Below are positions 1,664 through 42,711 of a stretch of 64,000 nucleotides of DNA, in pieces. The first letter of the stretch is position 1, and each line of letters opens with the position of its first letter. Source of the DNA: a bacterium (lineage in GTDB: Bacteria; Verrucomicrobiota; Verrucomicrobiia; Limisphaerales; J093); the NCBI GenBank assembly GCA_021823625.1, contig JAKANS010000005.1:1-64000 (forward strand). Direction: 5' to 3'. The notes under the pieces are model-generated. The model worked only from the letters and a program-made list of their open reading frames with translations. It did not search any database and had not been told where the DNA came from. Position numbers and translations under genes: made by a program.

Positions 1664-2878
1664 ATGAACGAAACCACGCGTTACCTCCAATCCGCCTCGG
1701 AAGAGCGTCCCATCGAGGTCGCCACCCTGGTCAACTGCCTCATCATCGACGCCGTCCGCGCCAACGCCAGCGACATCCACATCGAACCGTGGGAGAGCAC
1801 CATCGCCGTGCGGGTCCGCCTCGCGGGGGTGTTGCAGGAGCTGGTGCATCTGCCGCTCGACCTCATGGACAAGCTCGCCGGCCGGATCAAAGTGATGGCC
1901 AGCTTGATCTCCTACCAGACCGACCTGCCGCAGGAAGGCCACGTGGCCGCCAGCCCGGAGTTCGGCGGCGTGGAGTTGCGGGTCTCGTTCTTTCCGACCG
2001 TGCGCGGCGAGAAGATTGTCCTGCGCATCTTCGATCCGCAAAACCGCAGCTTCAACCTCGCCGACCTCGGCTTCGAGGAGGACACGCTGCAAACGTTCGT
2101 GCGGCTGCTCTCGCGCCCGAACGGCTTGATTCTGCTCACCGGCCCCACCGGTTCGGGCAAGACCACCGCCATTTACGCCGCGCTGACGCATCTGGTGAAC
2201 CGCCACGGGCCGACGATCTCGCTCAGCACGGTGGAGGACCCGGTCGAGTTTCACCTGCCGATGATCGGCCAGGCGCAGATTCACCCGGCCAAAGAGTTCA
2301 CGTACCCGCGCGCCTTGCGCTCGCTGATGCGGCAGGATCCGCAGGTCATCATGATCGGCGAAATCCGCGATCCCGAGACCGCGGCCATCGCGGTCCAGGC
2401 CGGACTGACCGGCCACTTGGTGATCAGCACGATCCATTCGGGCAGCACGGCCGGCGTGTTCGCCCGCCTCATCAACATGGACATCGAACCGTTTTTGTTG
2501 TCCTCGGCGGTGAGCGGCGTGCTCAGCTTGCGGCTGATCCGAACCACCTGCCCGCAATGCGCCGAGCCTTGCGCGCCGGACGCCGCACTGCAAAAGGCCG
2601 TCCCGGCGGAGGTGCTGGAAGGCGCCACGCTGCGCCGCGGCGCCGGTTGTCCGCACTGCCTCGACACCGGCTATGACGGACGCACCGCCCTCACGGAAAT
2701 GCTGGTGGTCGATGAGATTCTGCGCGACGCCATTTTGCAGAAGTTGCCCACCCGTTCACTGCAACAAGTCGCCATCCAGCAGGGCATGCACACGCTGTGG
2801 CAAAACGGCCTGCGCCGCGTGTTGAGCGGCGAGACCACGCTGGACGAAGTCATGCGCGTCCTGGCCGCGGACATCTGA
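1664..2878 (+). CDS. GspE/PilB-type secretion/pilus assembly ATPase
   Basis: Walker A 'GPTGSGKTT', 'GEIRDPETA', paired CxxC motifs; lacks the N-terminal GspE domain. Confidence 0.92.
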   Translation: MNETTRYLQSASEERPIEVATLVNCLIIDAVRANASDIHIEPWESTIAVRVRLAGVLQELVHLPLDLMDKLAGRIKVMASLISYQTDLPQEGHVAASPEFGGVELRVSFFPTVRGEKIVLRIFDPQNRSFNLADLGFEEDTLQTFVRLLSRPNGLILLTGPTGSGKTTAIYAALTHLVNRHGPTISLSTVEDPVEFHLPMIGQAQIHPAKEFTYPRALRSLMRQDPQVIMIGEIRDPETAAIAVQAGLTGHLVISTIHSGSTAGVFARLINMDIEPFLLSSAVSGVLSLRLIRTTCPQCAEPCAPDAALQKAVPAEVLEGATLRRGAGCPHCLDTGYDGRTALTEMLVVDEILRDAILQKLPTRSLQQVAIQQGMHTLWQNGLRRVLSGETTLDEVMRVLAADI

Positions 2879-2908
2879 GCCGTAAGTATGCCGTCGGAAC
2901 GCTGGCTC

Positions 2909-3043
2909 GCCCTCACCCTAACCCTCTCCCCCAGGAGAGGGAACCAACGGTCGGGGCGTGGGCAAGACTCACTGAACGATGAAGGTGCTCTCGCGCTGGA
3001 AAAGTCCCTCCCTCTCCCCGGGGGAGAGGGCCGGGGTGAGGGC
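2909..3043. repeat. REP-like inverted pair: CCCTCACCCTAACCCTCTCCCCCAGGAGAGGG ... CCCTCTCCCCGGGGGAGAGGGCCGGGGTGAGGG
   Basis: two self-complementary units in inverted orientation at about 2909-2941 and 3008-3043. Confidence 0.8.
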
Positions 3044-3094
3044 GAGCGTGAAGGCCAACCGCATGGATACGGCTGAGGATTCACGTTTCGCGGC

Positions 3095-4228
3095 ATGACC
3101 CTGGTGCTGGCCACGCTCGCGGTTCTGAGCCTTGCCTTGCTGCTCTGGCAATGGCTCGAAGCGACGCTCTTCCCGTTGCACCGGCGCGAGCCTGACACCG
3201 GCTTCGCGCCCGCGCTGACGTTGCTCAAACCGCTCAAAGGCGCCGACGCCGAAACCGGGACCTGCCTGCGCAGTTGGCTGGCCCAGGATTACGCCGGGCC
3301 GGTGCAATTCCTCTTCGCGGTCGCCACCGAAAACGACCCGGCAGTCGCCGTGGTTCGCCGGCTGCAGGCGGAATTTCCCAAAGCAGACGCGCAACTCGTG
3401 GTCTGCCCGGAGCGGCTGGGCCTAAACTCGAAGGTGTCCAAGCTCGCCCAACTCGAGCCACACGTGAAGCACGCCTTCCTCGTGGTCAGCGACGCCGACG
3501 TGCGCGTGCCGCCGGACTTTCTCCGGCAAGCAGTCCAGCCGCTGCGCGATCCCGCGGTGGGTCTGGTCAACCCGTTTTACCAGCTCGCCACACCCGCCAC
3601 GCCCGCCATGCATTGGGAGGCCCTCGCCACCAACGCCGACTTCTGGAGCAGCGTACTGCAGGCGCGCCGGTTCGGGCCGATGCACTTTGCGCTTGGCGCG
3701 GCCATGCTCGTGCGCCGCGAGGCGTTGGCTGGAATCGGCGGCTTCAAAACCTTGCTGAACCACCTGGCCGACGACTACGAACTGGGCAAACGCGTGACCG
3801 CCGGCGGCGCGCGGGTCGCCATCAGCCCAACGGTCGTGGAATGCCGCGAAGCTGCGCGCGGTTGGGGCGCGATCTGGCGTCACCAACTGCGCTGGTCGCG
3901 CACCATCCGCCATTGCCAGCCGGCACCCTACGCGGCGAGCATCCTGAGCAACCCCACGCTTTGGCCACTGCTCTGGCTGGCGGGCGCACAGAGTAGTCTT
4001 GCGCTCGACGGCTTCGGCGTCTGCCTGGCGGCCCGGCTGGCGATGGCGGCGCATTGCCAGTGGCGGCTGACCCGCTCGTGGCGGCAGCTGCCCTGGCTTT
4101 GGCTCGCGCCGGTGAAAGATTTGCTGGGCGCGACGCTGTGGGCGCTGGCGTTTCTCGGCCACACCGTCGAGTGGCGCGGCGAGCGGTTTCGCGTGCGGCG
4201 GGGCGGCGAACTGCAACGTCGTGTTTGA
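3095..4228 (+). CDS. family 2/21 glycosyltransferase, ceramide glucosyltransferase/HpnI-like
   Basis: 'PALTLLKPLKGAD', 'LVVSDADVRVPPDFL', 'LADDYELGKRV', 'HQLRWSRTIR' motifs. Confidence 0.85.
   Translation: MTLVLATLAVLSLALLLWQWLEATLFPLHRREPDTGFAPALTLLKPLKGADAETGTCLRSWLAQDYAGPVQFLFAVATENDPAVAVVRRLQAEFPKADAQLVVCPERLGLNSKVSKLAQLEPHVKHAFLVVSDADVRVPPDFLRQAVQPLRDPAVGLVNPFYQLATPATPAMHWEALATNADFWSSVLQARRFGPMHFALGAAMLVRREALAGIGGFKTLLNHLADDYELGKRVTAGGARVAISPTVVECREAARGWGAIWRHQLRWSRTIRHCQPAPYAASILSNPTLWPLLWLAGAQSSLALDGFGVCLAARLAMAAHCQWRLTRSWRQLPWLWLAPVKDLLGATLWALAFLGHTVEWRGERFRVRRGGELQRRV
4157..4218. repeat. 62-bp direct repeat, copy 1 (3' end of the glycosyltransferase)
   Basis: identical to 4975-5036. 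Confidence 0.97.
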
Positions 4229-4427
4229 GTCGGGCAGGTTGAGCAAAGACCGAAACCGAAGGAAACCAGATTGTCGAACCGCGAAGGTCCAGGAAACGGA
4301 TCTTGTGGTCGCCGATTTCCCCGCGCATTCAACCTCGTAAGCCAAGCCTCGTTTCATTCCGGGCGTGTCCAACGCCGGGCGCATGGGGGTGTTTGCTTTT
4401 CCGTCAGGGTGCCGCCACGCTGCGGGT

Positions 4428-4643
4428 GTGAACGTGCTTGAGATTCAGCAGATGCCGCGGCAGGAAAAGCTGCGGCTCATGGAAGCCTTATGGGCGGCCC
4501 TCAGTGGGGAGGAGCAGGATCTGGCGTCACCCGCCTGGCACGGCACCGAATTGGCCGCCACGACCCAACGGTTGGCGGCCGGCCAAGAGGAAGTGCTGGA
4601 TTGGGAACGCGCCAGGGCCGCGCTGCACAAGAGCCCGGCATGA
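4428..4643 (+). CDS. addiction-module component (RelB/ParD-like antitoxin), GTG start
   Basis: 'MPRQEKLRLMEALWAALSGEEQDLASPAWHGTELAATTQRLAAGQEEVLDWERARAAL' resembles addiction-module component proteins; 4-nt ATGA overlap with toxin. Confidence 0.8.
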   Translation: MNVLEIQQMPRQEKLRLMEALWAALSGEEQDLASPAWHGTELAATTQRLAAGQEEVLDWERARAALHKSPA

Positions 4644-4945
4644 GCCTCCGCATCCTCACGTCTGCCGTCAAAGACCTGGCAGATGGACGAGAGTTTTACG
4701 AGCGGCAGGGCGAAGGGCTGGGCGCGTACTTCCTCGATTCGTTGTTCTCGGATATTGACTCGCTGGCCCTCTACGCGGGAATTCACCGGAAGGTTTTCGG
4801 TTTCCACCGGCTGCTCGCCAAACGGTTTCCTTACGCGATCTACTACCAACTCGACGCCCAAGGTACGGCGGTCGTGTATCGGGTGCTCGATTGCCGCCAG
4901 AACCCGCGGAAGACTACGGTGGCGTTGAAGCGCAGTTCGTCGTAG
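4640..4945 (+). CDS. RelE/ParE-family toxin
   Basis: 'EFYERQGEGLGAYFLDSLFSDIDSLALYAGIHRKVFGFHRLLAKRFPYAIYYQLD..VVYRVLDCRQNP'. Confidence 0.88.
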   Translation: MSLRILTSAVKDLADGREFYERQGEGLGAYFLDSLFSDIDSLALYAGIHRKVFGFHRLLAKRFPYAIYYQLDAQGTAVVYRVLDCRQNPRKTTVALKRSSS

Positions 4946-4974
4946 GTCGTGAGAGATGGACACTCTCCTTCCTT

Positions 4975-5036
4975 GGCCACACCGTCGAGTGGCGCGGCGA
5001 GCGGTTTCGCGTGCGGCGGGGCGGCGAACTGCAACG
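4975..5036. repeat. 62-bp direct repeat, copy 2 (intergenic)
   Basis: identical to 4157-4218. Confidence 0.97.
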
Positions 5037-5399
5037 CCTCTCCCGAGACCGCGATGCTGGATCGAAGCGAAACTTCGAGACTCACCAACGGGCGCCGCGC
5101 CCCCTGAATTTTTGAGTTTGGCCGGACCCATTCCTGAATTGTCGGAGGTCCAGCCAGAAGTCATGAACCGGGGACCGATGCCTCCGGGCGAAATGACGCG
5201 TCAGTTGTGATAGCGGGATTGTCAGCCAAGCGTACGCGCGGCGGGGTCCGCTTCCCGGCCGCCCGACATGCCAGCCATCCCGCCCGGCGTTGAAGGATGA
5301 CAAGGTTGTCATGCTGGCTTCATGCCCAATTCACCGGGTGGCCGCAAAGTCTGTCGCGTTGACGGTTTCCGAATGACATCGATCGAAACGCAGAAAACC

Positions 5400-5822
5400 A
5401 TGAAAAGAAGCACCCTCATCGGCTCCCTCCTTGCGGCCTGCCTGCTCGTCGGGTCTGGCATCGGCAACGCCCTGGCCGGCGAAACCGCGGCCAAGCATTC
5501 CGACGCCAAGCCGAAGATTACGAAAGCCGAGGCGAAGAGAATCGCGCTCGGCAAGGTGCCCCACGGCAAGGTCAAGTCGTCCGAGCTGGAGAAAGAAAAC
5601 GGAGAACTGGTCTGGTCGTTCGACCTCGCCACCCCGGACACGAAGGACATCACCGAAGTGTTGGTGAACGCCAAGAACGGCAGGGTCGTGTCGGTACAAA
5701 CCGAGACGCCGGCCGAGCAGGCAAAGGAGGCCCAGGCCGACGCCGGAAAGCAGGGGAAGGGCGGAGAAAAGAAAGCGCGCAAAGAAAAAGAAGCAAACGC
5801 GGAGAAGGACGAGAAAGACTAA
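5400..5822 (+). CDS. secreted PepSY-domain protein with charged C-terminal tail
   Basis: signal peptide; 'ITKAEAKRIALGKVPHGKVKSSELEKENGELVWSFDLATPDTKDITEVLVNAKNGRVVSVQTE'. Confidence 0.85.
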   Translation: MKRSTLIGSLLAACLLVGSGIGNALAGETAAKHSDAKPKITKAEAKRIALGKVPHGKVKSSELEKENGELVWSFDLATPDTKDITEVLVNAKNGRVVSVQTETPAEQAKEAQADAGKQGKGGEKKARKEKEANAEKDEKD

Positions 5823-40270: not shown

Positions 40271-40279
40271 TAGGTCGTA

Positions 40280-40411
40280 GGGCGCATCTCACTTTCTTGC
40301 AACTCCGGTGGGAATTCCGAGGAAAACCGGAGATTTGCCTTGGGATCTCTGAGTGAAATCATGTGAATTCCCCCGGAAAACGGAGGGTGTGCAAGAAAGT
40401 GAGATGCGCCC
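40280..40411. mobile_element. 132-bp MITE with 22-bp perfect TIRs (GGGCGCATCTCACTTTCTTGCA) and 9-bp TSD (TAGGTCGTA at 40271-40279 and 40412-40420)
   Basis: TIRs and TSD read directly; inserted in the RM coding sequence. Confidence 0.92.
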
Positions 40412-42711
40412 TAGGTCGTAGCCTTGGAGAAAACTTGCTGGTCACCAAAATGGACGATGTGCACAAGATGTTTGCCAGCGGACAGAATTTCACGGAGCGC
40501 CTGGCCGTATTGAGCATTGAAGAATTTGTTGGGCAAGATGAAGCCAAGCCGGCCGGCCTTGGCTAGCAACCCAAGTCCGCATTCGGCAAATACAACGTAG
40601 ATGTCGTAGTTGCCCTGGCTTGCGGCTGTGTAGGTATGATTGAAGTATTCGACTTCCTGTGGCTGCGAATCCTGCATCGTCTGGATGCGGACGTACGGTG
40701 GATTTCCAATCACCGCGTCGAAGCCGCCTTCCCATTCTGGTCCAATCGCCGGCGAGAGGGGCATTGCCTTCTCGCCCTTCCGCTTCTTGGAACCGTCGCT
40801 GCCAGGTAGCGGCACGCCGGGCCTGGTGTAGTCCAGGGGCGCAGCAGGCGTCTCGCGCAACTCGCCACTGGAAGTCGCGCGCCGGAATATTTGCGGGAAC
40901 TCCGCCTGCCAGTCGAGGACGTTGATGCGGTAATGTTCCTCGTCGGTGAGAAGCGGGAGTTCGGATTGGTGGTAGAAATCCGGGCCGATGAGCGAGTTGC
41001 CGCACTTGATGTTGTCGCCGAGGTCGGGCAGGGCGCGTTCCTGGGAGAACCGGAAGAGGGTCTGGAGGCTTTGCCCCGTCTCGCCCTCCAGCACTTTGAG
41101 CCGCAGGGAGAGTTTGGTGACCTCGACCGCCTGCGTGTCAGTGTCCACGCCGAAGAGGTTGTTCAGGAGAATGCGCTTGCGCTCGGCGATGGTGAGTTTC
41201 CAGCCGCCGCTGGTCTGCACCAGGGCGGGTTTGCTGCCTTTCGCCCACTTCGCCGGGTCATTGGCCAGGTGGAATTGGAGATGCCAGTCCAGCAGGAATT
41301 GGTAGGCGCCGATGAGGAAGGAGCCCAAGCCGCAGGCGGGATCGAGGATGTGGCGTTGAGCGACGCGGTTGAGCATAGTGGTGGCGGCGCGAGGCGAAAG
41401 TGGGCCACGCTCGCCCTCACCCGCAACAACCAGTTTTCCTCCTTCAACCCTCACCCGGCCTTCGGCCACCCTCTCCCACTCCGGTGGGCGAGGGTCCGGG
41501 GGAGGGGGAAGCGCGCTTGAAGAAACCGGTTCGCCTGAAGTGTTGCCGGAGATTTCCGCCAGCAGTTTCCCAACGGTCTGCCGGACGATGTAGTCCACAA
41601 TGTAGGTGGGCGTGTAATAAACGCCGCCGGCCGTCTTCACCTCCGGCTTGTCGTCCACCACCGCGCGGTGGCCCTCGGTCAGGCGGATGACCTTGCCGAG
41701 AAATTGCTCATAGACCTGCCCAAGAATGTCGGCGGTGAGGACGGAGAATTCGTAGGGACTGTCGGGGTAGTAGAGGCTGCGCAGGATGTCGCGCAGCAGC
41801 TTGTCGTCGAGATCGAGGGACCGCGTGAGTTCGTCGGGATCTTCGTGCCGGCCCTTTTCCCTCTTGAAATGGAAGAGGCCGGAGTTGTAGCGGGCGGCGG
41901 CGGCCTCGAACAACTGGCACAAGCGCGGGGAGATGCGGTCGCCGTTTACGAACGCGCGCAGCCGGCCGTAGTCCTCGATGCCGCGGTCCTCGCCGATGCG
42001 AAGGAAGATGATGCGGTCAATGATGCGCTGGACGGCGAAGTTGAGTTCGCGCTGGCTGAGCTTCGGATTGCGGAGGGCGCGGTTCTCGGCCAGGCGCTTG
42101 CGCCAACCTTCGATGGTTTCAAGGAAAGCGTCGTCCACGGTGGTACCACGCTTGCCCTTGGAGCTTTCGGCGAACTTGTCGAAGGAACCTTTGAGGACGG
42201 CCTCGCGGGAGAAGACCGAAGCGATCCAGTCCCACTTCTCGCCGAGTTCGCGGAAGGTGCAATAGAAGATGCGGGCGGTGGCGGCGGGGTCATCCTGGTG
42301 CGGCTTGATCCGGCAGTCATAGACGGCGAACTCCTCGAAGTCGCTGAGGATGCTGAGGGGAAGCTTGGCGGACCAGGCGTAGCGGCGGAGCTGGTAGGCG
42401 GGGCTGGGCTCGTCCTTGATGCAGACGGACGGCTTCTTGGCTTCGAGGAAGAACTTGCGCGTCCCGCCAATGCGGAAGCCGTAGTCGGGCGCTTTCGTCG
42501 CGCCGCCGCCGCGAATCTGGTCCTCGTGAATGACATCCTTATAGGCCTCGGCGTAGCCCTGCACATTGTCCACGTCCCAACCGAGAGCCTGGAAGAGCGG
42601 GTCGAGGAACTCGCGGCGGAGCTGGGTTTCGTTGTACTGGCCGGACTTGTAGGCGTCGCGTTGCTGCTCGAAGCGAGCGACAAGATCCAGGACGGTTTGG
42701 GGCGCACTCAT
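40411..42711 (-). pseudogene. Eco57I-like (type IIG) restriction-modification DNA methylase, truncated at its 3' end by the MITE
   Basis: 'HILDPACGLGSFLIGAYQFL', 'FDAVIGNPPYVRIQ', N-terminal endonuclease-like 'APDYGFRIGGTRKFFLEAKKP'; ends '...FSKATT*' at the MITE junction. Confidence 0.9.
41447..41512. repeat. REP-like palindromic repeat in frame within the methylase CDS
   Basis: CCCTCACCCGGCCTTCGGCCACCCTCTCCCACTCCGGTGGGCGAGGGTCCGGGGGAGGG, related to the 2909-3043 units. Confidence 0.75.

Follow-up and report, generated by a model that had tools for sequence, protein, structure and literature searches.

How a toxin-antitoxin (TA) gene pair can come to lie against the 3' end of a chromosomal gene, with a second copy of that gene end on its far side and the gene itself left whole, is the question raised by the beginning of the window (the whole 64,000-nt stretch of DNA analysed here, which lies on contig C198 of a 6.1-Mb draft genome in 326 contigs). 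The initial annotation described a TA unit bracketed by an exact copy of the upstream gene's tail, and its coordinates and gene calls proved right: the 62-nt pair is exact, both TA domains are matched, and the upstream gene, hpnI, is intact. The features of the locus are the following.

3095..4228, plus strand: hpnI-type glycosyltransferase gene, intact, 377 aa, ending ...RRGGELQRRV (PF13506, E=6.7e-43; TIGR03472, 312.3 bits)
4139..4218, plus strand: left copy of the hpnI end, 80 nt, within hpnI; the exact 62-mer is 4157-4218
4219..4974, plus strand: putative inserted unit, 756 nt, if the 62-mer is the duplicated target (from sequence)
4428..4643, plus strand: antitoxin gene, Unstab_antitox, GTG start, 71 aa (PF09720, E=1.9e-11)
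4640..4945, plus strand: toxin gene, ParE/RelE-like, 101 aa (PF05016, E=1.5e-6)
4957..5036, plus strand: right, partial copy of the hpnI end; 4975-5036 is identical to 4157-4218
5037..5098, plus strand: flank beyond the right copy, common to contig C282

The exact copies, whose starts are 818 nt apart, form the sole direct repeat of at least 28 nt in the 64-kb window. The repeat extends upstream to 80 nt at 91% identity, with all 7 mismatches falling in the first 18 nt (Fisher p=1e-5 for clustering), where 4957-4974 agrees in frame with the left copy at 11 of 18 positions (61%; chance p=0.002). These diverged 18 nt still encode an HpnI-like peptide, WTLSFL against WALAFL, and for that reason the upstream extension is probably real homology rather than chance. 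The resulting mosaic of identical and diverged tracts suggests a later exchange between the copies, and with 62 identical nucleotides beside 18 at 61% the repeat may plausibly take part in homologous recombination. At its other end the 62-mer leaves the last ten bases of hpnI uncovered, stopping before the final two codons; the left copy of the gene end finishes with ..CTGCAACG, the sequence from 5037 on begins with CCTCTCCCGAGA, and continuation of the repeat past 4218 is no better than chance. If the 62-mer is the duplicated target, the insert would provide the last codons and the stop of hpnI, and 5037-5098 is probably the original 3' flank of the gene. The hpnI product scores barely over the cut-off of the HpnI model TIGR03472 (310 bits), and there is no Rfam match to a structured RNA within 3900-5500.

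The 62-mer is not the high-copy dispersed repeat against which the initial annotation had guarded its proposal: a dispersed-repeat explanation was rejected on finding two copies and one partial copy in the 6.1-Mb genome, and matches outside it, among 320 genomes of the order, are restricted to the tail-like part of the query. The third, partial match, at C282:13234-13300 (81% over 67 nt), is the only other significant one in the genome. The C282 copy (L003:3233-3330) pairs with window positions 4999-5098, that is, with the hpnI end and about 60 nt beyond the right copy; it sits 48 nt downstream of an unrelated DCC-type gene and is without TA genes. Two further structures were seen in the window, a 61-nt imperfect inverted repeat (74%) of CCCTAACCCTCTCCC-type sequence in the gap between gspE and hpnI (2875-3077), and an inverted pair of 24-mers (TAGGGCGCATCTCACTTTCTTGCA) about 110 nt apart at 40278-40413.

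The two genes within the unit overlap by ATGA (4 nt), and their matches to PF09720 and PF05016 are both above the cut-offs, so that by family and operon layout they constitute a putative type II toxin-antitoxin pair (ParE / Unstab_antitox). The right copy of the hpnI end begins 11 nt past the toxin stop. The TA pair is the only recognisable gene content of 4219-4974, in which there is no recombinase, integrase or transposase gene, no short att core, and, in place of terminal inverted repeats of the transposon kind, only weak internal inverted repeats; the bracketing repeat, at 62 nt, also exceeds the short target duplication of a transposon or insertion sequence, and a promoter scan returned nothing. 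Some integrase-borne elements restore the 3' end of a target gene, and the layout resembles theirs in having an intact gene end on one side and a gene-end copy on the other. The likeness drawn by the initial annotation is not supported in the integrase sense, since the unit has neither a recombinase nor a short att core; the repeat here, moreover, is a longer protein-coding stretch which varies from case to case. That the unit is an integron or array cassette, or the remnant of an integrase-borne island at a secondary site, is accordingly very improbable: toxins of the window type do also occur in cassette-array-like loci (e.g. L149, L182), but no repeated attC-like unit lies nearby (as judged without a dedicated attC model), and what brackets the unit is a single pair of hpnI coding stretches.

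Comparison with relatives, whose genomes include drafts, bears on what the site looks like when empty. The nearest named relatives of the genome are Pedosphaerales-type Verrucomicrobia MAGs; the gspE-hpnI order is preserved in close relatives, and the two closest, L073 and L074, keep rsuA as well. A nearby TA pair is lacking at all 26 hpnI loci recovered from relatives, and these TA-free loci carry one hpnI end. All of them are from other species, so that at hpnI the exact empty site is putative.

Recurrence of the layout was evaluated in a survey of PF09720 antitoxin loci (89 loci, ten in the own genome and the others in the order), with bracketing defined as direct repeats no shorter than 50 nt and no less than 75% identical. 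Bracketing was found at 16 of the 89 loci, at 11 of 83 after removal of cassette-array-like loci (two of the 11, L102 and L214, being weak), and at 6 of 70 PIN (VapC-type) loci, vs no bracketing pair in 341 kb of control sequence composed of random own-genome loci, hpnI loci, and window tiles which cut the window's own repeat. Repeat lengths are 62-80 nt in the window and about 60-150 nt elsewhere. L102, L214, L311 and L328 were dropped as gene-end cases, as they look like dispersed or noncoding repeats. The duplicated gene parts identified are these.

hpnI tail: window
sucC tail: L106, own genome
gcvP tail: L203
methyltransferase tail: L109/L041
DUF58 head: L108 (own genome), L148, L194, L202
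presumably hemN-like tail, clear: L325, own genome, PIN locus
transporter-like tail, clear: L307, PIN locus
ppdK-like internal stretch around a PIN-domain TA, likely: L322:1839-2791, own genome, contig C76
tail, likely: L329, PIN locus

Gene-tail repeats around other TA cassettes, for which the initial annotation proposed a search, are therefore present, and gene-end bracketing of TA cassettes is a general layout that recurs in the own genome and in related ones. Its usual order, in the orientation of the TA genes, is gene end, antitoxin, toxin, partial copy, with the partial copy beginning between -1 and about 67 nt past the toxin stop at bracketed loci; in L109 this order is reversed, the intact gene being next to the toxin. 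The majority of TA loci lack such a repeat, which would be due to decay or to other routes of entry. The survey also bears on whether the locus is an artefact of assembly or binning in which strains with and without the TA pair were joined through the 62-bp identity. A draft in 326 contigs and an exact repeat near common k-mer sizes invite that suspicion, but many genomes that were assembled independently have this layout with copies that are not identical (about 78-95%), and junctions are conserved across genomes; we consider an artefact highly improbable, marginally more so than a cassette or island origin.

Other repeat-associated TA genes came up in the same survey. At L103:1027-1995 (own genome, contig C212) a TA is bracketed by a 147-nt repeat (82%) without a gene assignment, beside an RHH-like antitoxin and a DNA methylase-like ORF. 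L182, L149, L142, L151 and L157 are cassette-array-like, with several 70-140-nt repeats around TA genes; the repeats of L182 and L142 look attC-like (GTTAGGC-type ends), and a tyrosine-recombinase-like gene adjoins those of L182.

The junction between moxR and DUF58 is a hot spot of insertion in this order. Many of the order's genomes have the two genes side by side, separated by -4 to about 170 bp, and so present an empty junction, while other genomes have inserts of about 470-2700 bp between them, part of which are not recognisably TA. Unstab_antitox or ParE-like genes occupy the junction in eleven genomes (G000, G214, G018, G037, G103, G005, G046, G124, G125, G057, G068; in G103 at a paralogous DUF58), and in seven of these a copy of the DUF58 head directly follows the toxin stop. 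Exactly 84 nt separate the copied ATG from the toxin stop in G000, G214, G005, G057 and G125, and antitoxin and DUF58 are 39 nt apart, with sequence recognisably in common, in G000, G214 and G057, so that both junctions are fixed across families. On a toxin tree with few columns and weak inner support, ten DUF58-site toxins require two site changes, vs 9.4 in shuffles. The fixed junctions and the clustering of toxins by site argue that the TA unit and its gene-end copy were inherited or moved together. At L108 the spacer between moxR and the head copy is 51 nt, vs 54-59 nt at the family's empty sites, and its sequence is not alignable with theirs.

Besides TA genes, the junction holds a DUF4160 gene in L194, an AbiEii-like nucleotidyltransferase in L261, and other DNA elsewhere; both of these loci have moxR tail copies. 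Two or more tandem antitoxin or TA genes are seen at single junctions in L193 (G018), L277 (G125) and L253 (G046); L193 has no DUF58 head copy.

Two explanations of these observations, all of them comparative, have to be weighed. The one that we favour, which we hold with about even confidence, is an insertion with a long target duplication, after which the gene ends act as arms for homologous recombination. The other is import, in which DNA carrying a gene end together with a TA pair came from a related strain or species and recombined through the gene end, either by a Campbell-type single crossover of a circle or by homology-anchored illegitimate recombination of a linear piece; the two ends would then be alleles of two lineages, the carried end having served as a homing arm. 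Import as a whole, by whichever route, is a possibility that we take seriously while thinking it somewhat less probable than not.

The origin of the copies bears on the choice, with the proviso that short tails resolve little and that gene conversion can mimic local origin. The copy at L202 is of the local paralogue type (91% vs at most 68% elsewhere), the hemN-like copies are each other's nearest (80/90 vs at most 73/90), and the window's 62 nt are identical to the local gene. All three speak against import, and the first two, in which a copy is nearest its own gene, are a reason to favour target duplication. Pointing the other way, the DUF58 head copies of L148, L194, L284 and L228 are closer to foreign DUF58 heads than to the local one. 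Copy differences, moreover, fall at third codon positions in 106 of 188 cases (sucC and gcvP having been put in their true frames by hand), an excess (p=3e-4) over an expected 0.436, which is an assumed value for one constrained and one dead copy; this bias is more than target duplication with one dead copy would lead one to expect, and it favours import. Import would also account for the 18 nt that precede the identical tract, which differ in HpnI-like codons and have a 15/18 match in G042, for homology that ceases at the stop codon in both L307 and L325, as flanks from different species would have it, and for the fixed junctions and site-clustered toxins.

Insertion with target duplication is nevertheless favoured because bracketing recurs among PF09720 and PIN loci and is absent from the control, because the copy starts so close to the toxin stop and the duplicated gene ends can be identified, and because empty moxR-DUF58 junctions stand beside occupied ones. 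The subsequent homologous step is favoured because of the fixed 84- and 39-nt junctions, the clustering of toxins by site and the mosaic in the window. The prevalence of repeat-free TA loci and the reversed order of L109 count against this reading, as do the third-position bias, the foreign-like DUF58 heads and the restriction of TA-free hpnI loci to other species. Applied to hpnI, the favoured reading would have a minimal, recombinase-free type II TA cassette enter at the 3' end of the gene; first entry at a gene would be an insertion with a long and variable target duplication, as in restriction-modification (R-M) systems, a step favoured because the unit holds only the TA pair. Two copies of the gene end would then be present, the complete one towards the antitoxin and a 62-80-nt remnant past the toxin stop, and they could serve as ordinary homologous arms, permitting exchange between them, clean loss of the unit, and its passage as a whole into the corresponding gene of other strains. 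A stronger form, in which the TA cassettes here are integrase-free homing units that use the gene-end copy as a homology arm, exit cleanly and re-enter other strains or species at the corresponding gene end, leaving the gene intact each time, seems to us unlikely.

Insertion of R-M systems with long target duplication has reportedly been described by Nobusato et al. in 2000 and Furuta et al. in 2010. As two papers summarise it, these systems insert with long, variable target duplications on the scale of 100 bp (PMC3874152, PMC3031569), a precedent that is a further reason for favouring target duplication. The likeness lies in an addictive gene pair, without a recombinase of its own, within direct repeats of the target of variable length (about 60-150 bp). 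The present cases differ in that the cargo is a type II TA pair rather than a restriction-modification system, in the position of the repeat, which coincides with gene ends and adjoins the toxin stop, and in the site fidelity and fixed junctions at moxR-DUF58; some of the copies, too, may be foreign alleles. Chromosomal TA modules between co-transcribed genes, such as ccd between folA and apaH or parDE between relA and mazG, are treated in a review which calls the mechanism of TA integration unelucidated (PMC7167474). Those modules likewise lie at recurrent sites between genes that are adjacent in relatives, while a gene-end duplication is not described for them in the passages of the review on this point. 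Reports of TA modules flanked by duplicated gene ends were absent from the literature searched, the coverage of which was partial.

On the best reading, TA cassettes with duplicated gene ends would extend the known insertion with long target duplication to TA cargo, tying TA mobility to the duplications known for restriction-modification systems. The recurrent layout hints at how TA cassettes enter chromosomes without breaking genes. At the moxR-DUF58 junction empty and occupied sites form a natural series, and the scar of gene end, antitoxin, toxin and partial gene end would let genome comparison address TA entry.
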